Below, one piece after another: positions 1 to 46,234 of a DNA stretch of 64,000 bases. The DNA is taken from the NCBI GenBank assembly GCA_018902385.1, contig JABSSW010000033.1, forward strand, positions 1 to 64,000, read 5' to 3'. Source of the stretch: Physcia stellaris (lineage: Eukaryota > Ascomycota > Lecanoromycetes > Caliciales > Physciaceae). The notes below the pieces were generated by a model that worked only from the letters and a program-made list of their open reading frames with translations, did not search any database and had not been told where the DNA came from. Numbering within the stretch: position 1 is the first letter of the stretch; each line of letters starts with the position of its first letter. A program made the position numbers and the translations under genes.

Positions 1-999
1 AACAAATTTTACAACGAATTCGATTTTTACTATTTGATAAAATGAAAAAATTATGAAAACGCGATTTGAAAATTTCGTCGTTTGTGAAGCATTTTCGAAA
101 TTTTTGCGACAATTTCGACGAAAATTCAAAAAAACTTGATGTCGATAAAAAAACAAATCGTCGAAAATCACGAAAAATGAATTGAAATATTTATTGCATG
201 TTAAACGCATTTCGTTTTCAAAAATTTTGTGTGTTATTTATTGTTTAAAACTTACGCGCATGAAAAACTGAATTGTGTCCGCGTTTTTAGAAATTGTTGT
301 TCGATCTGATCGAACGATAAATCGTTGAATAAAAAAATGTGAAATGAAATAAAAAAAAAAATTTCGAAAATTTGAATATTAACGCGATCGGGTGATTAAT
401 GAACATTTATCGCGTTACACACTTTTTCATAATATCGATGTTGATATTCGAAATAAAAAAAAAAAGAAGAAAAAATGAAAAAATGTTCGAATTCAGAATT
501 TTCTGTCAACAAATCAATTTGTCAATTACTGATATCGAAAATTGTAAATGATACGAAATTAAACATTCGATCATGAAAAGCAACAAACAATTGAATCAAA
601 TTATGCTTTTTTTGAATCATTGAAAATGTTTTCAAATTTTAACGCAGATTGACTTTGAATTCGAGCAGAAATATTTCGAAATGCGAAAAGACGATCGTAA
701 TAAATCTTAAAATCAAATCAATGCAAAATCAAAACAAACAAAACACGTCAAGACAAACAGAATACGTCAGAATTTCTGTTAGCATGTTGATTTCAAGAAA
801 TTTCGATGTTTAAAAAAAACGTATGTAAGAAATAAAAATTCAGAATTTTCGAAAATGCGACTCGCATTTCGTCAAGCAATTCGATTATCGAAATTCGAAT
901 GATTTCGAAAAAATCAATTTCAATCATTTTACAACTCGATCAACGATAAACGAAAACAAGTTTATCGTTTTCAGTCGAAATCGTTCGAATTCGTACGAT

Positions 1000-3171
1000 T
1001 GAATAAATAGAATGTGAATGCAAATCGTTGCAAAACGTAGTCTGTTCTATAACGATTAATAAATCAATATATTACATTTCAAGCTATACATTTCTGATGT
1101 CAATAATTCATTAAACTATACTATTTCTAATACGAGTTTTACAGACAGACTGAAAAAATAAAATTTCTGAAAAGATTAAGATGTATTCTTTGAAAACTAA
1201 AAATCGTGCTTTTGTCGATAAAATTTTCGACGAATTACACGATTTAAATCGACTATTCTGAATCGAATTAATTTCATTCAGTTATTAGTGTTTTGTGTTT
1301 GGAAAAACGTTAATGAAAAGCGTAAAAATCGCGTTGTTGTAAATATTCGGAAATTTAATGTAATAAATTCAATCGAATGTTTATTTTGTCGTTTCAAATG
1401 AAAATCATTTCAATCGTCAAGAATTATTTCTATATTACTGTCGTGAATCGTTTCGTTTTTTTATCAATGACGAATACATTCAAATGATCGACACAAATTC
1501 ATTGTAATAAATCATCGAAATCAGAAATATTTGACGTTGTCGTAATGAAATATAAAAAATTCGTCTGTTTACGTGCAACGACAAATTGATCGATTATTTC
1601 GTGTTTATCGAAAATTTGTCAAACATACGTTGATGATATCGTCATTTTCTCACGGAATTTGACAAGAATACGTTAATCATTTGTGTCAGATATTTATCAA
1701 ACTGATTAACGTCAATATATTAAATCAAATTTATTAAAAATTAAATTGATTAAAATCAATGCAATTATTGAGTCAAAAAGTCGACTCGCTTGATTTATTC
1801 ACTAGTGAGAAAAAACTGAAAATCATTGTTAAACTTCAGTTTTCTCGTATTTTTCGTCAGTTGGAAACTTATCTTGATTTTATTGACTGAATGAGAAAAT
1901 ACGTTTCATTTTACGTCGACGTATCAAAATTTTTACAAGAAAAAAATATTATCTTGTTAAAATCTGTTCTCAAGAAAAAAAACGCTAAAAAGATTTTCGT
2001 TAATCGAATTAGAATCGACAATACAACGTCAAAAAAACGAATTTCATACGAAATACTTCAATTTTTATTTTCGGAATTTTTCTATTTCATTCATCATGAT
2101 TCGAAACGTCAAATTTATGTGAATTTGAATGTCAACAAAAAATTCGACATCGACGTTATAATTTATTATGTCAAGAAAGATTTTATCAAGTCAAACGAAT
2201 ATTCAGTCAAATCGTTTATTCAATCAATAATGTTCTTGTTCAAATTACTGAATTCGATCGAAATTCGTTATTGATCGATTGAAATGAAAGTCGCTGACAT
2301 AATGTGAATATTGCGAAAAATTCGTCATCTTATCGAATCATTCATTTCGTTTATCGTTATATACATTGATCATGACGTTGCGTTAAACATAATCAAACAA
2401 ATTATTTTTTCGTTTTCGTCGACAGATAAATTGAATTTTCGATTAGTTCGTGTCAACGATTATATTCAACGTTTCGATTTGAATATTCGTCATAAATCAA
2501 GCAAATTTCATTTTGTGTCGAATGTCTTGTTTAGATTAACTAGTTTCAACGACTTACAAACATCATCGAAAAAAAAACTCGATACGTTTTTCATTTTTGT
2601 CGATGTTGACACAAATCGTTCAAATGTTGACGTATACTTTACTTATTCGCTAATGAAAATGAACGATGTTTTTCGACAAAAAATTCTAAATGATTACAAA
2701 ATCGATTTTAACTGAAATCGAATTTTGAATGTTTTAGACATCGAAAACGACGTCAATTTTTTTTTGAAAAAAAAAATCAAAAATTTATTTTTCGCGTTGA
2801 TAATTTTACTGACGATCACGTTTTCATTTTTCGTCGATTTTGTATATCAGATGCTGTCGTCAAAAATGTGTTAGAAATCGTTCACGACGATTCAAATGAT
2901 CATTCAAAATACGCAAAATGTTACGAGCAAATTGTTTCGACATGATATATTCGTGATTTGATTTGTCAATTACGCGATTATCTGAAATATTGTTCAAAAT
3001 GTCAAATTAATCGAATCAAACGTCATCAGTCGCACGATTCGTTACAATTTATTTTGTCGTCAATTATTTTTTTTCACACATTTAATCTAAATTTCATTTT
3101 TGCGTTGTCAATATTACGCGTCGAACAATTCAACGTCGCTATGTCGATTATATGCAAATTCACGAAACGAA
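1000..3171 (+). mobile_element. Chromodomain Ty3/Gypsy fossil, left part (RT, RNase H, start of integrase)
   Basis: This is a plus-strand Ty3/Gypsy copy, broken in many places. A YVDD-type reverse transcriptase active-site region lies near 1,630. The RT-RNase H connection and RNase H match the family around 1,780-2,560 (for example the RHLIES and TDKLNFRLVR-like stretches). The HHCC-like zinc region and first part of integrase lie at about 2,950-3,170. The copy is interrupted at 3,171 by a second element and resumes at 9,901. Upstream gag and protease are either unrecognisable in 1-1,000 or outside the window, and no LTR of this copy was found. Confidence 0.8.
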
Positions 3172-3176
3172 TTATT

Positions 3177-3400
3177 TATCATGAGTCGTGCTTGAATAAA
3201 CGTATTATTGATCAATTAAACGAAAACAATAAGTCTGCAAAAACAAGTAAATACAAAATGTTGAAATTGCAAACAATGTGCGACGTCAAATTTCAAATCA
3301 CGTTAATTTCAACGTAGAATTAAGACATAATTCGTTGTTCGATCATATATCATATCAACTATTTATTTGTCAGATTTATTTGTTAAACATGTTCGTAACA
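3177..3400 (-). repeat. 3' LTR of the nested element
   Basis: This 224-bp copy matches 9,672-9,895 as a direct repeat without any length change. The outer neighbour is TTATT (3,172-3,176) and the inner neighbour is a purine-rich tract on the minus strand, which identifies it as the 3' LTR. It has been hit by C-to-T changes more heavily than its partner. Confidence 0.9.
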
Positions 3401-4119
3401 TTATTTTTTTCTTTTCGCGAACGTCGTTTCGACGATTCGTTGTTATTTCGAAATTGAAAAATTTTGTTGAGAATTTTGTTGATTGATTTGAATGTTTGCA
3501 AAATTCAAAAGTTTCACGATCATCATTTTTCATTTTCAAATGTTTCGTTATTGTTTCAAAGTTCGATAAAATTTGATAACAATTTTTGAAAATGTTTTTG
3601 ACACGATTGATTCTTCATGCGACGTAAATTTTGACTGTAAATAACATCGAAACGATAACGAAAACTAAAAATTGTGAAAACGTTGCGAAAATGAAATCGA
3701 AATGAATGTATTGAATTCGAGTTTTTCAAATTTTAATCGAATGTAATCTCGATTAATGTCAACATGACGATTTTTTTTCGAAAACGACGACGATTCGCTG
3801 AAAAATCTAATTCGTCGACGACGTTTTGAAATATTGAAATCAACGTTTTGAACGATTTTGAACTTGCAATCGTGAAATGAATGCGATGAAAATCGTTCAT
3901 CACGTTGCGAACATTATCAAATTTTTCGTTGTCGACATAATATCATGTTCGATCATGCGATCAGCTCGATCAATTGACACGATACTGAAAACGATTGTAA
4001 TGATATCGAAATTTCAAAATATCGTTCATTTTTCATTCGGAATTTTCGTTGATTATGACAAAATCAAAAAATTCATTGATTTGATTTTCGAATGAATCAC
4101 GAAAATCTTTGCGCAAAAG

Positions 4120-5862
4120 TCAACAATGAAACACATCGTAAATATACATGATTTCAAACAATTCGAGTCGATATGAGTTGTTCATACGTTGTAATATTTT
4201 GTAAAAATCTAATTTTTTGTCATCGAATTTGTCAAACGATTTGATCGTTTTGATGTTTCGTCGATCGAAAAAAACGAAATTTTTTTCGACGTATTTTACG
4301 ATTTTTCGATGTTTGTTGATTTGAATTGTCATACGTTTCTGAATCATCTTTGCATGATTTCGTACGTAATTGAAAATATTTTGCATAATGTCGATGATAT
4401 TTTTTGTTTTGACGATCAAAAGTCGTTTTCTCGTTGTAACATACGAAATAAAATCTGATGAAAAACTCATACGAAAATGAAAATTTTTATTGATAAAAAA
4501 TGAAAATAATTTTGTTGTTGCAAATATTGCGTTGTTGTTTGCAAATTCGATCATGAACAATCAAACGTTTTAATCGTTTTGCATGTAATTGCAATACTGT
4601 CGCAATTGTCTTTCGATATTTTGATTGATTTTCTCGATTTGTTCATCGATTTCTGAATGAAAAACGATGAAAAATTTACATTTGATGTCGAAAATTCGAC
4701 AAAATGTCTGTCAAACGAGCGATATGAACTGAAAGTTTCGATCAAACGTTATCGAGAAAAATAATTCATGTGTACGAAATACGTAATTGATGAGTATTTT
4801 GATCATGATTTCAATATTGATATTTTCGTCGTCGACGATACAAAACACGTAATAACGTTTTTTGTTAAATTTGTCAATTATCGTGCATATGACATTATGA
4901 TCGTGAACGTCGAACAATTCGATGATGAAATTCATTGATATGTCGATTCAACGTTGCAAAAATATAATCAAAAAAATAAATAAATCGTTTTTGCGATTTT
5001 TGAAAATTTTCGTGCGTTGACATTCATGACAATTACGTACGTATCGACGAATCGTTTTGCGCATGTTGAATCAATAATAATCGCGACGTATAAAATTTTT
5101 CATGCGATTAAAATATAAATGTTTCGAAACAGAAAATTCATGAATTTCTTTGAAAAAATCAACGAGTAAAAGAACATCGACAAACATTCAAAATCGATCT
5201 TTTCGATACAAAACGTCGTTTTTTTCAATGCAATTTCGTAAATCAATTTCATTCATTGAAGTGAAATTTTGCTCGATGATTTCACGATAAATCGTGCAAT
5301 CATCGTCAACTTTGTTAACAACAAAAATTCGTTCATAAATAAATTCGTCGATTTTCATCGCGTGAATCTCGAATCGTTTCGAAATAAACAATATTTGTTT
5401 TCGATATTGATGTCGTTCGTCAATATCGTTTTTTGATCGTGAGTCAAACATACGAATCAAGACATTTGCTTTAACGTTTCGAATTTCGAACTGAAATTGA
5501 ATGACAATATTGAATTTCGAGAAAATTTCTGCTCAACGAATTTGACGAAAAATTAATTTCTTTGACGTCATGAAAATTTTCAAATTTTTGTGATCGATGA
5601 AAATCTTGATCGATTTTTCAATGTTTTCAAACTCAGAACGTCAATGTTTTAAACAACGAATAATGATCAACAACTTCTTGTCATAAATTTCGTAATTGCA
5701 TTCGATCGAAATCATGTTGCGATTATAAAAAACAACGAAATGCAAAACTTCTTCGTCGTCGTATTGAAATAATATTTTCGCATTGACGTAATCAAAAAAA
5801 TCAATTTTCAGAATGATCTGTTTGATTCGATCGTAATGTCGTAATATGAAAATTTCGATCAT
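4120..5862 (-). pseudogene. RNase H and integrase region of the nested element (fossil)
   Basis: RNase H is recognisable at 5,641-5,862 (the ECNYEIYDKKLLIIIR stretch). The integrase core is at about 4,711-4,935 (DVHDHNVICTIIDKF, then HELFFSITFDRNFQF), and a C-terminal integrase segment runs to 4,120. The order RT-RNase H-integrase supports Ty3/Gypsy. Broken in several places. Confidence 0.8.
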
Positions 5863-6302
5863 CGTTTTTTTGAAAAAATTGAAAATTTTTTCGATTTCAA
5901 CAATTCATTCGAAATTCACGAATTTTTTGATCATTCGAATGAGAACTCGAATTTTCTTCGAGAAATCACGAATGAATCGTCTGTAGAAATTGACGAAATT
6001 CACGAAAATTTGCATTTTCTTCAAATTTGTAAAGCGTTTTCAATTGACAATAATTTTTATCTTTTTCGAATTCATGCGAAAATCATTCATCGATAATATG
6101 ACGTTCAAAAATGTCATTTTTTTCTTGAAAAACTCGCATTTTTCAATATTTATTTGTAATTCGATTTTCTTGAATTTTTTCAACATTTTACGAACGTGAA
6201 CGATGTGTTTTTTTTGAATTTGCTGTAAATGAGAATATCATCTAAATAGATTTGACAGAAATCGTTCAAAAAACTGAACAACAAATCGTTTATGTAATGT
6301 TG

Positions 6303-7055
6303 TCAATTCGCGAACTCGTTGATCAATTCGAAAAATAATACTCGATATTTGTACGATTTCATGAAAATAACGAATGTAATGAATTTTTCATTTTTTTCAC
6401 TCATTCGAAGTTTGTTGAAAATCGATATGATATTCAGCTTGATCAAATATTTGCAATTTTGCATTCTAATTAGAATTTTTTCAATCAAAAAAATGAAATA
6501 TCGATTACGTTTCGTGATGTAATTAAATCGTCGATAATTTACACACAAACGTAATTGATCATTTGATTTGATTGCAAATAAAACGAACGAAACGTATGTT
6601 GTTTGATTGAATACGATGAAATTTTTTTGAAAATTATTTTTCAAATATTTTTTGAATTTTTGAAATTTGAATTCGAACAAAAAATATATTCGATTTCGAA
6701 ACAATGTATTGCTATCGTTTAAAAATTCGATTTTGTGATCGTAAATTCGATGCGACGACAATTCAATTGTTTTTTGAAAATCGAATACTTTTGACAAATG
6801 TTTGAAATATTTCGATATTTTTTTCATTATACGTTCAAGAATCGATTTGATTTGTTCGTGTTTCAAAATTTTTTTGATCATGACGACAATTTTCAACGAT
6901 TCAAAATTTGTTCGCAATGTTTTGAGTGCGAAATCGATTTGATTGATCGTAATGAAAAAACATTGCATTTTTTGTTTTCGATTTTTGAAATCGACAAATA
7001 AACAAAAAAAAATCGCATCAATCATCGCGATATTCATCGAATCGTTTGAGTTCAA
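6303..7055 (-). pseudogene. Reverse transcriptase region of the nested element (fossil)
   Basis: The minus-strand frame contains the conserved RT block LRLCVNYRRFNYITKRNRY and the following LIEKIL...CKYLIKLNI segment, unmistakable for Ty3/Gypsy RT fingers and palm. The gene is broken. Confidence 0.85.
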
Positions 7056-7544
7056 TTTCGAAAATGAAAAAATTTCGAATTGTTGTTTTTTAATTTTTCA
7101 ACGTTTGTTGCGTTGTTTTTTTAAATTTCTTTTTTTGACGAATGTCGTTTTCGTAATCGCTGTGATATCAATTTCTGAGTGATTTGATTTAGCGACGAAC
7201 GATTTGTCATCTTGATCGATTTTCGAATGAATAAAACATTCGAAACATTTTGAATCGAATACGTTTGACTCGTTCTGTACATAAAACGTTGAAAAGTTAG
7301 ATTGCGAACGAAATAAAATCGTATATCGAAATTTTATTGCAACAATATGTTTCGCGTTATTTGTTTTCGATAAAAAGACATCGCGACGTCAATTAAATAC
7401 GTTTTATCGACGATTTGAATCAAAAGTTTTCAAACGTCGAATTTGCATTGTTTTGATGAATATATTGTCATGATGATTACATCGAAACGATTTGAAAATC
7501 AATTTATCGTAAATTATATTCAGAATAATTTCATGTTTGTTCAT

Positions 7545-7943
7545 TCACGATTTTTTTAAAATTATCGAATGATTGTTCAAATCGATGATGAACAAAGAAA
7601 TTGTCAATTCGAAATGCAAATCAATTGTCAATTTGAAATAAATGACATGAATTATTGAAAAAATCTGACGATCGTCGAATTCGATAATGAGTTTCGATTT
7701 TAATAAAAATACGAAATTCATGTTCAACATGTTGCATACAAATTGCGCAATTTTTCTATCAATGAAAACATAATCAATTGCATCAATGTCTATTAAAGTT
7801 TTTAATTTATGTTTATTATCGTTGAATGACAACGTACAATTGATGACTAAAAGTCGTTTGACAAAAAAATCAAACAATTCGTCATGATGAATAAAAAAAA
7901 TTTTTAAATATTCATCAATCGCGTCTTTGATGTGAATTATCAA
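7545..7943 (-). pseudogene. Retropepsin-like protease region of the nested element (fossil)
   Basis: A minus-strand frame shows the retropepsin neighbourhood: the region equivalent to the LIDSGA active site is recognisable (TLIDIDAIDYVFID), followed by the usual beta-strand pattern. It lies between gag and RT, as expected for Ty3/Gypsy. Broken. Confidence 0.65.
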
Positions 7944-8047
7944 TTTTTCGAGTCAAATTCGTTCGATTCGTTGATCATGTTCATGTAAAACATTTGCATT
8001 TTGTGTCAATGACGTTTTTGATGTTTGTGAACGTTCGAATACATTTT

Positions 8048-9454
8048 TCATACGTGATCGATTTCATCGCATGTGAAACATTTGTTCGTGACGATCAATT
8101 TGTTTGTCATCGAGTTATGAATTTTGATTTCAACGTTGAAATGAAAATGAACGACAAACTTCACGAAAAAAATCGAAATAACAAATTTCGTAAAAAGCAT
8201 CGAAATCGAAACGACAAAAGTTGATTTGAATTGAGACAATTCAAAACGTTGTTGACGTGTCGCGATTTTTTTTTTTCGAAAATTCGATTGTCGATTGTAT
8301 ATTTGTTGCAAAATGATTCGAATTTCATCGAACGTGATGAATTCACGTGATTATACATTCATCGTTTTTTTCAAATTTCAAAAAATTTTGTTCATCAATT
8401 TTTCGATTTTGATGATTTCGCTATAGTCGATTGAATTGTTAAAACGAAAAAAAATGAAATAAAAGAATTGAAAGTTTTGAATATTCATGATCAATGTTCG
8501 AAATTGAATACGCATATTGCGTTTGAAATCAGAATTTTCGAAAATGAAATTCAGAAATTTCAACATCATATGTCAATTTTTGAAATGATTCATGTCGATA
8601 TCACGTATCGATTGTATGTGATCATCGACATCATTTTCAATTTAATCAATCACAATAGTGATTGCGATCATGTTCGTGTCGTAATGATCGACGTTGATCG
8701 TCATTTTATCATGCATTTTTGTTTTTCAAACACGTCAAATAAATTTCATTTCGTCGATGAATTTAAAAAAATCTGAATAAACTTTTGAGCGTCGTTTGTT
8801 TTTATTGAAAAAACTAATTACGTTGATTTCGTCGTCGTTGTTTTCATCGTCGTCATCAAAATTTCGTGTACGATCGCGAATCGTGACTAACAAAGCGTCA
8901 TGATCTTTTTTGAGAAAAATGTAATCGTGTTGCTTGACTAAAAGTCGATCACGCGTTTGCTCGTAATTAATTTTCAATGTATTCATTTTTTTGCGAATTT
9001 CATCGAGTTCAACGTTTGTATTGATCAATTCGTCACGATCGACGTTGACGATATTGTACAAATTTTGATATTGAATCAAAACGTTCAAATAATTGTCACG
9101 ATCAATGCGTAATCGATCAAATTTTTTCAAAAAATCGATAATTTTTTGATTGACTCATCATTTCAATTGATCGATGATGACGATGTTCAAAAAATGAATG
9201 ATTTCGTTATTTTTCATTTTTATGAATTCGATCGTTGAAACGAATCGACAACGTTTGAATTGTTCGACGAAATTTTCGTCGAAAAAGTTGTCATTGATTT
9301 TTTGTAACATACGATTCACATTGAAACGTAACGTTTTGAGACGTTGTTTCATCGAAATAAAAAATTCGAAAAAAGTTGTTTCGTGAGAATTTCGAATCAT
9401 AACTAAAAATGAAAAATTGAAAAATGATAAAAGAAAAAAAATTAATCGAATCAA
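8048..9454 (-). pseudogene. gag-like region of the nested element (fossil)
   Basis: Minus-strand frames hold a charged, coiled-coil-like stretch (8,735-9,130) typical of fungal Ty3 gag, followed by a zinc-knuckle remnant (CFTCDEIDHV) near 8,050-8,080. It sits directly inside the 5' LTR. Broken in several places. Confidence 0.7.
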
Positions 9455-9671
9455 TTTTTTTTTATCGTCGAAAATATCGTCGTTTGCGTGAAAATTCGAT
9501 TTGTTATTTCACGATTTTCGTCAAGTGTTTCGTCAAGAAAACTTTTGATCGTTTGTTTAATCAGCAAAACTTTTCGTCGTTTGTTTCGTCAAAAGAATTT
9601 GATCGATTTGAAATTTTATTTTTGAACGTTCGCGTATCACGACGAGCGATAAAATTAAAAATTTATTGTAA

Positions 9672-9895
9672 TATCATGAATCGTGCTTGAATAGACGTAT
9701 TATTGATTAACTAAACGAAAACAATAAATTTGCAAAAACAAGTAAATACAAAATGTTGAAATTGCAAACAATGTGCAACGTCAAGTTTCAAATCACGCTA
9801 ATTTCAACGTAAAATTAAAACATAGTTCGTTGTTCGATCACATATCATATCAATTATCTATTTGTCAAATCTATCTGTCAGGCATGCTCGTAACA
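9672..9895 (-). repeat. 5' LTR of the nested element
   Basis: This 224-bp direct repeat partner of 3,177-3,400 differs at about 22 positions, every one a transition. It is followed by TTATT at 9,896-9,900, the same five bases that precede the other LTR, so this is the target-site duplication. On the minus strand it opens with TGTTACGAGCATGCC, a common type of start for fungal Ty3 LTRs. Confidence 0.9.
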
Positions 9896-9900
9896 TTATT

Positions 9901-11150
9901 ATCGTGTTAAACAAGAATATCTGAACAATCGTTCAGTGAAATCGAGTTTTACTGAATCAACTTGATTTCGACGATTGAAAATTATTTAAAATGTTAATAT
10001 CTGATCGCGATCGAAAGTTCATGAAAAATTTCTGACGAGAAATTTTCACACGTCTTGATGTGAAATTATTGTACAATACAATTTATCATTCACAAATCGA
10101 TGAACAATCGAAAAAAACTAATCAAACAATCGAAATTGTTTTTCGATTTCTCATTAATGTGCTGAATAATTTTGCAAATTGAATTGAAATCATATTTGAT
10201 ATTCAACGAAATATTAACAATTCGATAATCATCGTTATTGACAAAACGCTTAACGAGATTTCATATGAATTTATTTTCACGCAGATTTTCGACTTGTTGA
10301 AATTTTTTGAAAAATCGTCGTTGTCGTTATCGCAAATGACTCGACAAGAAATTGTCGATGTTTTGATTTTTGCGCAAATGAATTTCAAGTTTTATTACGA
10401 TCGCAAACATCAATCGATTAATCTCGTCGTCGACGATTGAACACAAATTCGTTTTCACAAAAATTACGATATTTTTTCGATCGCAATGCTGAATAACAAA
10501 TTTAATCAACAATATATTGTTTTTTTTCGTGTTATCGAAAAAATCGATAAACTAGTTTATCGATTGAATATTCTCAAAAAATGAATTATTCATTCGATTT
10601 TTTTTATCGTTCAGTTGAAATCATGTTTTGATTCAGCTAAAGATTTTTTTCGACGTCATCGTTTTACTCAATCGAATTTTGTTTTCGTCGAAAAAAACAC
10701 TGATTTGATCAAGTTTTTTGAATTGAAACGTATCATCAACAAACGAATGATTGCTCGACGCGAAATCGAATATCTAATTAAATGAAAAAATTATGATTCA
10801 GAATATGATGTCTGGAAAAATTTATCGAAACTGAACGACGTCATGAATTTGATGCAAAAGTATGAAAATTCAATTCGTCACATGATCGATTTATTTGATC
10901 GTCATCGTTTGTCGAAATCAATTATGTTGAAAAAGTTTTTCGCAAGTCAAAACAACAAGTTTATTTTCGTTGACAACAAGTTTATTTTCGCTGACAACAA
11001 AATTATTACTTCGCAATCGATTTTCGCTTTTCGATTTTTAGTCGTCGTGTCACGGAAATTTTTTTCAATCTCGTCAACGTCAACGTCGCTGATTTTTTCA
11101 TTCGAAACGTTGATTTTACGTCGCTCTAATCGATTAACTAAAAATTGAAA
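9901..11150 (+). mobile_element. Chromodomain Ty3/Gypsy fossil, right part (integrase core and chromodomain)
   Basis: Immediately after the nested element's target duplication, plus-strand frames resume the interrupted integrase: an SDRDRKFM segment near 10,000 and a TNQTIEI segment near 10,110-10,130. A chromodomain-like region follows at about 10,740-10,880 (EYLIKW then YDSEYDVW), which identifies the host copy as a chromovirus. Broken in many places. The 3' LTR was not found. Confidence 0.78.
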
Positions 11151-12025
11151 AATATTGAAAAAAAGTTGTTGTTAGAAGAAACGTATGACTAGAAACTTAT
11201 CATGATCGACACTGAAACAAAATTAGAAACTTATTGAGACATGACTAGAATAATTAAAAACTACGAAAACGTAATTGATTTTTCTTTATTGAAACAGACT
11301 GTTACAAATCGACTTTTGTCTGATTTGAAAAACTTGTTTCTGTTTGATTTCATTGATTTGATTAGTCGACTTGACATTGACATTTATTCGAATTTTCAAT
11401 ATTTAACATTTTATCATCTTTTTACTATTTCATCAATGAATCAATGTCTTTACAAAATTGTGTTTTTTTCAATTTTTTCAACGTTTTCGACGTCATTCGA
11501 TTTCATTTTTTCGTTTTTTTTATTTTATATCGAAATTCAAAAATGCGAATTTTACAACATTTTTTTGTTTTGATCGTTTTTTTTCAACGTTTTTCAATTA
11601 TCAACGTCATGATATTTATTGTTTTCAAATTCGTTCAAATTTTTGAAACGCAAAAACGATTGAAAAATTCAATATAATTATCGTTATAATGAAAACAATT
11701 GAAACAAATCGTCAATCAATTGAAAAAAATCGTGAAAAAAAAAATGAAAAAATCAATTGTTTTTTGTTTTTGCGATTTTGAAATTTCAAATCGACGCGTA
11801 TTCAAAATCAAAAATAAAATGACGCAATCGTCAATAAAACGTACGATTATTGCAAAATTCGTGATATATTAAATTTCGATGATTGAATTTTTCATGTTGT
11901 TATTGTTTCATGAAATCGATTTTTTACAAATCGAAAATAACGAACGATTTTTAATTCTGTTATACGCGATTTTTTCATTGATTAAAATTTTTGTCGAAAC
12001 TCGTTTTAATCAGAATTTGTTGCAA

Positions 12026-12839
12026 CGTTAGATGGCCGCTAATCACCCGCTGTGAAAGGGGACTGTACGAGAGAGCTACTAGGTCGGAGAACCCTGAAGC
12101 CAAGATAAACAGAGAGTAAAAACCTGAAAGAGGTCTGATACTCCGTTTTATCTGCCACCTTCATCTTCAAGCGCGAACGGAAAGTATTTACGGTCGCGGA
12201 GTCCATATGCCTCCTATGATCGAACTGTGTACGTTCTTGATCATTTCTGCTACTGAGCAGGCACAAAGCCTTCTTGACTGATATTGTAGAATACGTAGTG
12301 AAAGCGGCATTCCTCTCTCGTTTCTATGAACACATGCTTTGATTGTAGGCCGGACCCTGACTGCAAAGATCGACTCTCTCACTCTAATATGGAAGTAGAA
12401 CTTCCAAGTGAAATAATGAGATTTGTGGGATCTAAAAGAAGAGAAGAAGCGAGGAAGGTTCTTCACTTCGACGAGAATGCCGCTTTTGCGCTTGAGTCCG
12501 TATTGATGTGGCCGACAGTGGGCACTGTGAGTTTTGTGCTTCGCCAGGCTCAAATGAGAACTGTGAAGTGCAAGAAGCAAAAGAGCGAGGCTGATCCTGT
12601 AGATCCTAGGCGAAGCAGATCTGCTTCAAGACCTTGGCTTTACAGAGTAGATTCAGTTTGCTGAGCTTCTGGCTTTGGGTTTTGACCTCTGGGCTCGGAC
12701 GTTCGGACGAAACCGAGTGATGTGCAGTAGCAGCAGCTCGGATGAAGCTGTAATTGGTCGGAAACACTGGCGTGAATGCGTGATGTTGCCAAGGGTGGAA
12801 TCATTAGACGAGTGCAGATTCATTCACGCGAGCTCGGAG
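12026..12839. other. No convincing gene
   Basis: Composition is normal. Short overlapping open frames occur on both strands (for example 12,326-12,664 plus and 12,188-12,580 minus), but none shows a recognisable domain or coding texture. This is the buffer between the transposon block and the first gene. Confidence 0.5.
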
Positions 12840-13200
12840 CTAGCCCCTGGTTTGTTGAGTTGGCGGTCTCCATCCAGATCCATCACATGGAAATGCCACT
12901 TGAACGATGATGTACTCATCTTTCTCTTGTTGAGAGGTCATGATGTAAACACCTTGATCTCCATCGAAGAGAGCAACACCATTCTCCCTCCCACAAGTTG
13001 CTCGATCGTGCAATCTCGTCGTCTGTTCCCGATAAGGAGTGTTTCATCTCTCTGGTGTAGCGCCACGGAGGTACCCCAACAACCACTTCAGCCAACGCTG
13101 CCTCGCTCTTTGGTGTCAAAAGGCTCAGCTCGTCTGGGGCCATATCTCCTACCATATCCCACTGCGAACCTGGCCCGTGTAGCGCAGGGGTTTCCGACAT
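12840..13200 (-). CDS. Hypothetical protein, probably two exons
   Basis: I do not recognise this gene. From an ATG at 13,200 the first part reads as plausible protein (start MSETPALHGPGSQWD, then PDELSLLTPKSEAALAE and VVVGVPPWRYTREMKHSL). A second stretch in another frame (ALFDGDQGVYIMTSQQ, then KDEYIIVQVAFPCDGSGW) ends at a TAG at 12,840-12,842. Joining them needs an intron or a frame change between about 12,980 and 13,060 that I could not place. The start is divergent from the next gene, leaving only about 76 bases between the two ATGs. No signal peptide or membrane segment is visible. Confidence 0.4.
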
Positions 13201-45844: not shown

Positions 45845-46234
45845 TCAGTCCAGCTCACCAGTACGCCCCGACCTCTCGCTCAGTCGAGCACTAGCCATCT
45901 CCCACACCTGCTCGCGCACATGCTCGTCTTCAATCCAGCGAAGCTGACTCGCTATGATAGAAGTGAGATACTGAGGTATACCATCTTCATCGATAGCGAC
46001 TGTGCTATCCGGGCCTTTGCTGCATTTTTCGGACTCTGAGCTCCATGCTGTGGCTTTGATTGTTAGTTTGGTCAGAGTGTCGAAAAGGATGGGCGCTGAT
46101 GGCCGTGTGTATAATTGTGGGAGGTCGAGGACTAGCACTGTTGCTCAGTGCTCGTCGTTCTTTCAACAGTTGGTAAGATAGTTCGTACCATGGATCGGTG
46201 CATCATACGAGAAGACAGGACAATCGTCAGTCAT
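45845..46234 (-). CDS. Small conserved fungal protein, two exons, 112 aa
   Basis: Exon 1 is 46,189-46,234 (MTDDCPVFSYDAPIH) and exon 2 is 45,845-46,137 (LVLDLPQLYTRPSAPILFD and IPQYLTSIIASQLRWIED, then VREQVWEMASARLSERSGR). Splice signals are GTACGA and CAG. A GTGAGC donor in the last codons hints that a further 3' exon may exist. I know of no function. The first ATG lies about 90 bases from the MITE. Confidence 0.65.

Follow-up and report, generated by a model that had tools for sequence, protein, structure and literature searches.

Repeats mutated from C to T before pyrimidines, with CpC foremost, in Physcia stellaris: a probable form of RIP that spares CpA

The mutated block at the start of the window

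RIP takes place in the sexual phase, before meiosis, and it needs RID, or DIM-2 in the case of older repeats. Its preference for CpA is usual but not universal (CpG equals CpA in Trichoderma reesei). The window analysed here, a stretch of 64,000 nucleotides of Physcia stellaris, raises the question of whether a RIP-like activity can follow another neighbour rule, as was suggested in the original prediction, which named CpT/CpC as the target. The window and its parts are:

1 to 12,030: CpY-mutated block (CpC nearly gone, CpT scarce, CpA and CpG retained), GC 28%, recognised by composition and segmentation
1 to 3,176: left flank of the nested element, mutated to an equal degree; repeated, with pieces matching four fetched loci (L017, L018, L021 and L023)
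3,177 to 9,900, minus strand (where the coding frame of the relative L034 falls): nested LTR retrotransposon, recognised by its LTR pair and of Ty3/gypsy type through its unmutated relative L034
3,177 to 3,400: LTR 1, with 41 genome matches overall and 40 near-full-length scored ones including itself
9,672 to 9,895: LTR 2, unlike LTR 1 at 22 sites, transitions only
9,901 to 12,030: right flank of the nested element, mutated to an equal degree; one weak match (L022, 64%) among the fetched loci
12,031 to 64,000: DNA free of the mutation, CpC and CpT being at normal levels; an internal control of about 52 kb with frames matching GWT1, SNF2, MFS, MMM1 and a methyltransferase

In the block (1 to 12,025), the C/(C+T) share was.006 before C and.087 before T, and.535 before A and.508 before G, versus.456,.513,.617 and.436, respectively, in the flank (12,101 to 64,000). 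A two-state segmentation placed the boundary at 12,030, and the sum of CpC and CpT per 300-bp window was at least 33 in all 516 flank windows and at most 25 in all 117 block windows. Thus, the comparison of dinucleotides that had been proposed as a check showed no CpC/CpT depletion in the adjoining unique DNA. For 4,201 to 4,500 (both strands), we recovered the predicted CpC of 0, CpT of 7 and CpG of 40, and a TpA/ApT of 0.43 where about 0.4 had been given, while CpA was 33 on recount instead of 34.

The two LTRs differ at 22 of 224 sites without any transversion, and the base 3' of the C was T in 17 cases, A in 3, G in 1 and C in 1, exactly as previously counted by hand. When the C sites of both copies were pooled, 18 of 22 CpY sites differed and only 4 of 106 CpR sites (Fisher p = 1.2e-14). 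Mutated copies of the nested element were found in 18 of the 20 fetched loci (at least 88% identity over at least 600 columns), and in these alignments T was fixed at 12,944 of 12,964 CpC columns. The LTRs therefore differ mostly at CpT because CpC is saturated. CpT-dominated differences between copies do not by themselves prove a CpT preference, since alignments have also revealed CpT changes where TpA/ApT indicates CpA-type RIP (excerpts of PMC6180176); CpT is likewise mentioned in excerpts of PMC7882544 and PMC2621366.

Target context against unmutated relatives

The relative L034, in which Pfam detected RVT_1, RNase H and an integrase zinc-binding domain, is 74% identical to positions 4,595 to 8,037 of the window and served as an unmutated reference. 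Against 16 mutated copies, the changed share was.977 at CpC,.931 at CpT,.114 at CpA and.041 at CpG, with 13,953 C-to-T changes, 307 T-to-C changes and 358 transversions. A second unmutated reference, L035, gave.978,.933,.115 and.040 with 16 copies. For both counts, 16 loci were chosen and each contributed its best match of 1,000 columns or more; L019, L021, L031 and the short LTR loci matched too but were left out. For L033, an unmutated member of another family, all 5 long matches were included, and the shares were.975,.857,.086 and.046. The order was preserved in lightly mutated DNA, with CpC ahead of CpT. Ancestral base composition was rejected as the cause, both by these polarised counts and by the GC of the unmutated relatives (about.48 to.57 per 500 bp).

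The changes are thus C to T, and the C is selected by a pyrimidine as its 3' neighbour in the order CpC > CpT >> CpA > CpG. CpA-dominated transitions were not seen in the tabulation of aligned genomic copies by 3' neighbour. Since CpA is spared and unmutated references are available, the C-pyrimidine rule is demonstrated. The predicted activity with another neighbour preference is borne out in both of its contexts, with the refinement that CpC is the primary one. Changed CpA sites were common to several copies more often than expected (1,907 versus 608 by chance), and part of the CpA and CpG change probably reflects common descent or a reference that has diverged. Of the marks of RIP, near-exclusive C:G to T:A transitions and mutation of both strands were found, while the usual CpA preference was not (.114 versus.977 for CpC and.931 for CpT; 3 of 54 CpA columns in rDNA). 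We interpret the data as RIP, or an equivalent of RIP, with a C-pyrimidine 3'-neighbour rule that is strongest at CpC, with a probability of roughly 85%.

A slow passive decay, in which vegetative methylation of repeats at CpC/CpT (e.g., DIM-2-like) is followed by deamination of 5-methylcytosine and no dedicated mutator is involved, was also considered. Passive deamination is expected to exceed transversions tens of times, not hundreds of times, whereas the CpC change was about 600 times the transversion rate at C in the same alignments; the copies are near saturation and transversions are few. Therefore, passive deamination was rejected as the main cause on the rate ratio, and we regard this explanation as quite unlikely, even though the genome holds a DIM-2-like gene and DIM-2 is credited with a preference for CpT methylation in a 2026 review (excerpts of PMC13297926). 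To that extent our case resembles methylation of repeats by DIM-2; methylation is, however, not the same as mutation, and CpC is not reported as favoured by DIM-2 in those excerpts.

Strands, neighbouring bases and rDNA

Both strands are equally mutated and adjoining single-copy DNA is spared. Against L034, CpC was changed at.977 on the top and.984 on the bottom strand, and CpT at.918 and.951. The effect of the 5' base was small (ranges of.964 to.993 for CpC and.89 to.935 for CpT), and the +2 base had little influence on either context. In a mutated rDNA unit compared with conserved Rfam columns, changes were found in 35 of 43 CC, 26 of 49 CU, 3 of 54 CA and 3 of 54 CG columns, and in 3 of 239 A/U columns; in the SSU part, 3 of 15 CpA had changed. 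Only upper-case consensus columns entered this count; they came from 6 of 8 printed LSU blocks, the two 5.8S blocks and the final 4 SSU blocks, of which the very last was counted in part. The sole 5.8S match, among the 39 of 2,644 candidates that were scored, was itself mutated.

Transposon tryptophan codons were turned into TGA stops. Stops were carried by 140 of 150 scored reverse-transcriptase matches (TGA 250, TAA 33, TAG 3). TGG had become TGA in 176 of 197 cases, and CGA had become TGA in 4 of 324.

A cytosine deaminase that is independent of methyltransferases, either APOBEC-like or acting on retrotransposon cDNA, might edit repeats and would fit a heavy load of exclusively C-to-T changes affecting retrotransposons. 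However, APOBEC-type enzymes select a C by the base on its 5' side and show strand bias, while here the 5' base is nearly irrelevant and the strands are alike, and APOBEC-type hypermutation was rejected on these grounds. Editing of cDNA fails as an explanation because the rDNA unit and the flanks of the nested element are mutated too. A search for APOBEC_N gave 0 matches, but it is uninformative since the control genomes gave none either. Altogether, we consider a deaminase to be even less probable than passive decay.

Slightly less credible again is a sequencing or assembly artefact in which methylated C is read as T in long reads. Methylated repeats are the place where such miscalls are expected, and retained CpT sites recur among copies above chance (663 versus 184). 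Nevertheless, a miscall should affect the reads of one strand only, and yet at least 97% of CpC sites are T. Moreover, the degree of mutation varies per copy (changed CpT share from.74 to.99), and the LTRs of a single element differ at 17 CpT.

Classic RIP indices

When 352 AT-rich windows of 500 bp from 20 loci were pooled, TpA/ApT was 0.42, (CpA+TpG)/(ApC+GpT) was 1.36 and the composite index was -0.94. The pooling used 377 of 380 windows, with 3 dropped whose GC lay between.34 and.42. Therefore, the classic indices score the mutated DNA as not affected by RIP, which had been anticipated for the block. The ratio (CpC+GpG)/(TpC+GpA), defined earlier in RIPCAL (excerpts of PMC2621366), detects the mutation immediately, being 0.006 in mutated versus 0.837 in unmutated DNA. 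The weakest alternative, CpA-type RIP masked by exhaustion of CpA so that copies differ at CpT, would fit published CpT reports such as that on C. truncatum families, whose TpA/ApT is close to 1.6 (excerpts of PMC6180176), but it is refuted by CpA retained at 88 to 91% relative to the unmutated references and in 51 of 54 conserved rDNA columns, by the TpA/ApT of 0.42 and by stops that are TGA and not TAA/TAG.

Cytosine methyltransferase genes and a possible mechanism

The suggested search for RID/DIM-2-type genes showed that the genome encodes one DIM-2-like methyltransferase and two probable RID/Masc1-like ones, and all three genes are unmutated. The DIM-2-like product (L010) matches PDB 9bap with an E value of 4e-180 in two stretches covering the catalytic and N-terminal parts; this entry is deposited only under the name 'DNA (cytosine-5-)-methyltransferase', and from its length we presume that it is DIM-2. 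L009 and L011 are probably RID/Masc1-like; EQT/EET in place of ENV is taken to be a mark of these enzymes. L009 matches PF00145 from position 2 to 323 in a single read-through stretch, and L011 matches it at 2-160 in one frame and at 254-322 in another. A C5-methylase domain with PF00145 partly missing is described as a feature of RID/Masc1 (excerpts of PMC4352252).

One of these C5-cytosine methyltransferases, a RID/Masc1-like or the DIM-2-like one, may perform or guide the mutation, with its reading of the +1 base switched from A to C/T. By analogy with RIP elsewhere, it would act in the sexual phase, and its purpose would be the silencing of transposons. We find it likely, though less so than the interpretation as RIP or its equivalent, that the RIP target was flipped to C-pyrimidine, CpC first, through such an altered +1 reading by one enzyme, either a RID/Masc1-like paralog or DIM-2.

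Comparison with known systems

The mutation in P. stellaris resembles RIP of Neurospora crassa and T. reesei in its C:G to T:A changes on both strands of repeats and in the presence of DIM-2-type and, probably, RID-type genes. However, the reported order for N. crassa is CpA>CpT>CpG>CpC, and T. reesei likewise has CpC in last place (excerpts of PMC5496416), whereas here CpC>CpT>>CpA>CpG. The CpT component of RIP has been tied to a motif in RID (Amselem et al. 2015; excerpts of PMC4352252). As in Magnaporthe oryzae, Botrytis cinerea and Sclerotinia sclerotiorum, CpT is among the C-to-T sites of transposons, but those species show a CpT plus CpA signature, with CpC unreported in the excerpts, whereas here CpC is the foremost target and CpA escapes. 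The rDNA unit is damaged by C-to-T changes like the RIP-mutated rRNA pseudogenes of filamentous ascomycetes, in which CpA/TpG changed most (excerpts of PMC5555474), unlike the CpC, and next CpT, of our unit. Microbotryum and truffles share a repeat-linked C-to-T bias in a non-CpA context (excerpts of PMC4352252); theirs is of CpG type, whereas in P. stellaris no context changes less than CpG.

A 2025 kingdom-wide survey concluded that a preference for CpA is common to RIP-like defences (excerpts of PMC12543289). Repeats with CpC and CpT nearly exhausted and CpA standing are an exception both to this shared rule and to CpC being the weakest context, and they show that standard TpA/CpA indices can overlook heavy mutation. 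No description of a CpC-first, CpA-sparing RIP was found in the freely accessible literature searched. If the proposed reading is true, RIP specificity would be a trait of a single enzyme that can evolve, and index-based surveys would have recorded species following such rules as RIP-negative. The enzyme set of this genome suits a direct swap test of what sets the dinucleotide choice of RIP.

Relation to repeats and extent in the genome

Within the fetched sample, 73% of 221,914 mutated bases are duplicated, versus 1.1% of 67,825 unmutated flank bases (a total that omits L033-L036). This figure is biased towards repeats, since resemblance to the window LTR or to reverse transcriptases was the basis on which loci were selected. 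L034 and L035 are 95% identical across 3.4 kb and, like L033, unmutated though repeated, and therefore some repeats escape, for which recent arrival or rare sex would have to be assumed. By segmentation, the edges of mutated DNA were sharp, and two DNA segments (L037 and L038) showed patchy mutation. Two k-mer estimates, calibrated on repeat-rich loci, put the mutated share at about 8.1 and 4.8 of the 44 Mb of the genome.

Mutation in the window and its direction

The two LTRs of the nested Ty3/gypsy-type element in the window (3,177-3,400 and 9,672-9,895) had been predicted to record RIP-like mutation (RIP, repeat-induced point mutation) in a CpT/CpC rather than CpA context. The counts behind this were reproduced: the LTRs differ at 22 of 224 sites by transitions only (CpT 17, CpA 3, CpG 1, CpC 1), and the interval 4,201-4,500 contains CpC 0, CpT 7, CpA 33 (34 in the original prediction) and CpG 40, with a TpA/ApT of 0.43. 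When the C sites of both LTRs were considered, 18 of 22 CpY sites (C before C or T) differed versus 4 of 106 CpR sites (C before A or G; Fisher p = 1.2e-14). In 1-12,025, C/(C+T) before A, C, G and T was.535,.006,.508 and.087, versus.617,.456,.436 and.513, respectively, in the flank. Segmentation placed the edge of the block at about 12,030, and 0 of 516 flank windows (300 bp) approached its values. ATTAT is present at both ends of the nested element (3,171-3,175 and 9,895-9,899), and might be a 5-bp target-site duplication, a weak reading because the surrounding DNA is AT-rich.

Unmutated references were obtained by a reverse-transcriptase search (150 scored of 527 candidates). Loci L034 and L035 are relatives of the window's element, and L033 is a relative of another family (L039-L043). 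With all three, changes were concentrated at CpC and CpT, as predicted.

Sites changed relative to unmutated transposon relatives
Comparison; CpC; CpT; CpA; CpG
L034, 16 mutated copies; 97.7%; 93.1%; 11.4%; 4.1%
L035; 97.8%; 93.3%; 11.5%; 4.0%
L033, 5 copies; 97.5%; 85.7%; 8.6%; 4.6%
L034, window's own copy; 448/465; 355/433; 29/448; 16/443

The L034 comparison comprised 13,953 C-to-T changes, 307 T-to-C changes and 358 transversions. Both strands were changed alike, and the 5' base and the second downstream base had little influence on CpC and CpT change. Changed CpA sites common to copies numbered 1,907 versus 608 expected by chance, and retained CpT sites 663 versus 184; therefore, independence among sites or copies is incomplete, and some of the CpA and CpG change probably reflects a diverged reference or common descent. 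Residual CpA-to-TpA change was two to three times commoner with a pyrimidine after the A (.17 for CAC and.15 for CAT versus.06 and.07 with a purine, in copies aligned to L034 and L033), an effect to which reference divergence may contribute.

CpC is changed first

In L015, the lightest of the 16 copies, 94% of CpC versus 74% of CpT sites were changed, and CpC likewise preceded CpT in the lightly hit loci L037, L038 and L040. In alignments of the window's element with 18 other copies, 12,944 of the 12,964 columns that precede C are fixed for T. Thus, the predicted targeting of CpY and sparing of CpA stand, but the CpT lead in the LTRs is not the rule: with CpC exhausted, their differences resemble a CpT rule. 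L037 (G000:C26:2,711-3,181) and L038 (G000:C30:441,242-441,712), with their flanks, are repeats that show light, patchy mutation with unmutated stretches inside, and are perhaps recent or partial hits.

CpC comes first here, whereas it comes last in the Neurospora crassa order (CpA>CpT>CpG>CpC) and likewise in Trichoderma reesei (PMC5496416). In other work, CpT occurs alongside CpA in three species, tied to a RID motif (Amselem et al., PMC4352252), and in Anisogramma (PMC10998396); CpT differences are noted in Neurospora Tad1 (RIPCAL, PMC2621366); alignments of fungi capable of RIP show CpT-to-TpT as a dominant form (Van Wyk et al., PMC7882544); in CpT-biased families of C. truncatum, TpA/ApT is near 1.6 (PMC6180176); Monilinia combines classical RIP with some CpC-to-TpT double changes (PMC8959702); and a shared CpA preference was concluded by Badet and Croll (PMC12543289). 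No CpC-first, CpA-sparing RIP was found in the literature searched, which was that outside subscription.

Extent in the genome

The window's LTR has at least 40 near-full-length matches in the genome, its own copy included (40 scored of 351 first-look candidates). In 20 LTR-copy loci (198 kb), C/(C+T) before A, C, G and T was.5095,.0029,.5091 and.0351 in 352 AT-rich 500-bp windows, and.599,.462,.445 and.494 in 25 GC-rich ones. Across the 44-Mb genome, two k-mers characteristic of mutated DNA were counted 4,436 and 2,557 times, versus 71 and 79 for reversed controls. With 214,942 mutated and 85,037 unmutated bases as calibration, they suggest a mutated share of about 8.1 Mb (18%) and 4.8 Mb (11%), to an order of magnitude since the calibration loci were picked for repeats. 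CpY mutation is confirmed, and widespread in the genome.

It also affects L045 (G000:C41; 5.8S at 45,899-46,052), an rDNA unit that includes LSU, 5.8S and SSU parts, holds the assembly's one 5.8S match (39 of 2,644 candidates scored) and provides an independent ancestor, with no transposon reference required. At conserved Rfam columns, 35/43 CC, 26/49 CU, 3/54 CA and 3/54 CG were changed, versus 3/239 conserved A/U columns; all three CA changes lie in the SSU part (3/15 there). No normal unit was found among the 5.8S candidates scored, and the assembly therefore probably lacks the working array.

Under the genetic code, C-to-T change at CpC turns TGG into TGA, and CpA-type RIP makes TAA and TAG. 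Stops were found in 140 of the 150 scored reverse-transcriptase matches (527 candidates): 250 TGA, 33 TAA and 3 TAG. In the L034 frame, 176 of 197 TGG codons became TGA and 20 more TAA; other stops were CGA to TGA (4/324), CAA to TAA (17/298) and CAG to TAA (9/231).

Not all repeats are mutated, since L034 (G000:C5:1,166,521-1,166,997) and L035 (G000:C12:60,312-60,788) are repeated yet unmutated, beside many heavily mutated copies. They are 95% identical, with no CpY bias seen among their differences; recent arrival or escape is possible. The reverse-transcriptase gene L036 (G000:C39:289,506-290,279) is also unmutated. Its open frame spans 833 aa, the fetched sample contains no second copy of it, and it may be a host gene, for instance telomerase.

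Mechanism and candidate enzymes

The CpY mutation is best explained by RIP, or by an equivalent of RIP, whose neighbour rule has changed. Passive decay of repeats fits less well than RIP, because both strands are acted on, target sites are nearly saturated, CpC changes at about 600 times the rate of transversions at C, and mutation is associated with repeats: in a fetched sample picked by repeat similarity, 73% of mutated versus 1.1% of unmutated flank bases had a second copy.

For RIP, cytosine methyltransferase genes probably of the types named in the original prediction are present in the genome. In Neurospora, RID is needed on new repeats, and RID and DIM-2 on older ones (PMC11969663). Since the methylation preference of DIM-2 is given as CpT in a review (PMC13297926), a DIM-2-like enzyme would be as much suspect as a RID-like pair. 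The candidates for the pair, probably RID/Masc1-like, are:

G000:C6:791,557, class-I methyltransferase gene (L009)
G000:C5:498,855-499,792, class-I methyltransferase gene (L011)

They are diverged, sharing 39% identity over the catalytic part, and an in-frame stop in L009 was taken as part of a short intron. EET and EQT replace the usual ENV motif in L009 and L011, and the two might divide labour. The third locus, L010, matches PDB 9bap (E 4e-180), from which we take it to be the DIM-2-type candidate. All three loci are themselves unmutated, with long predicted frames.
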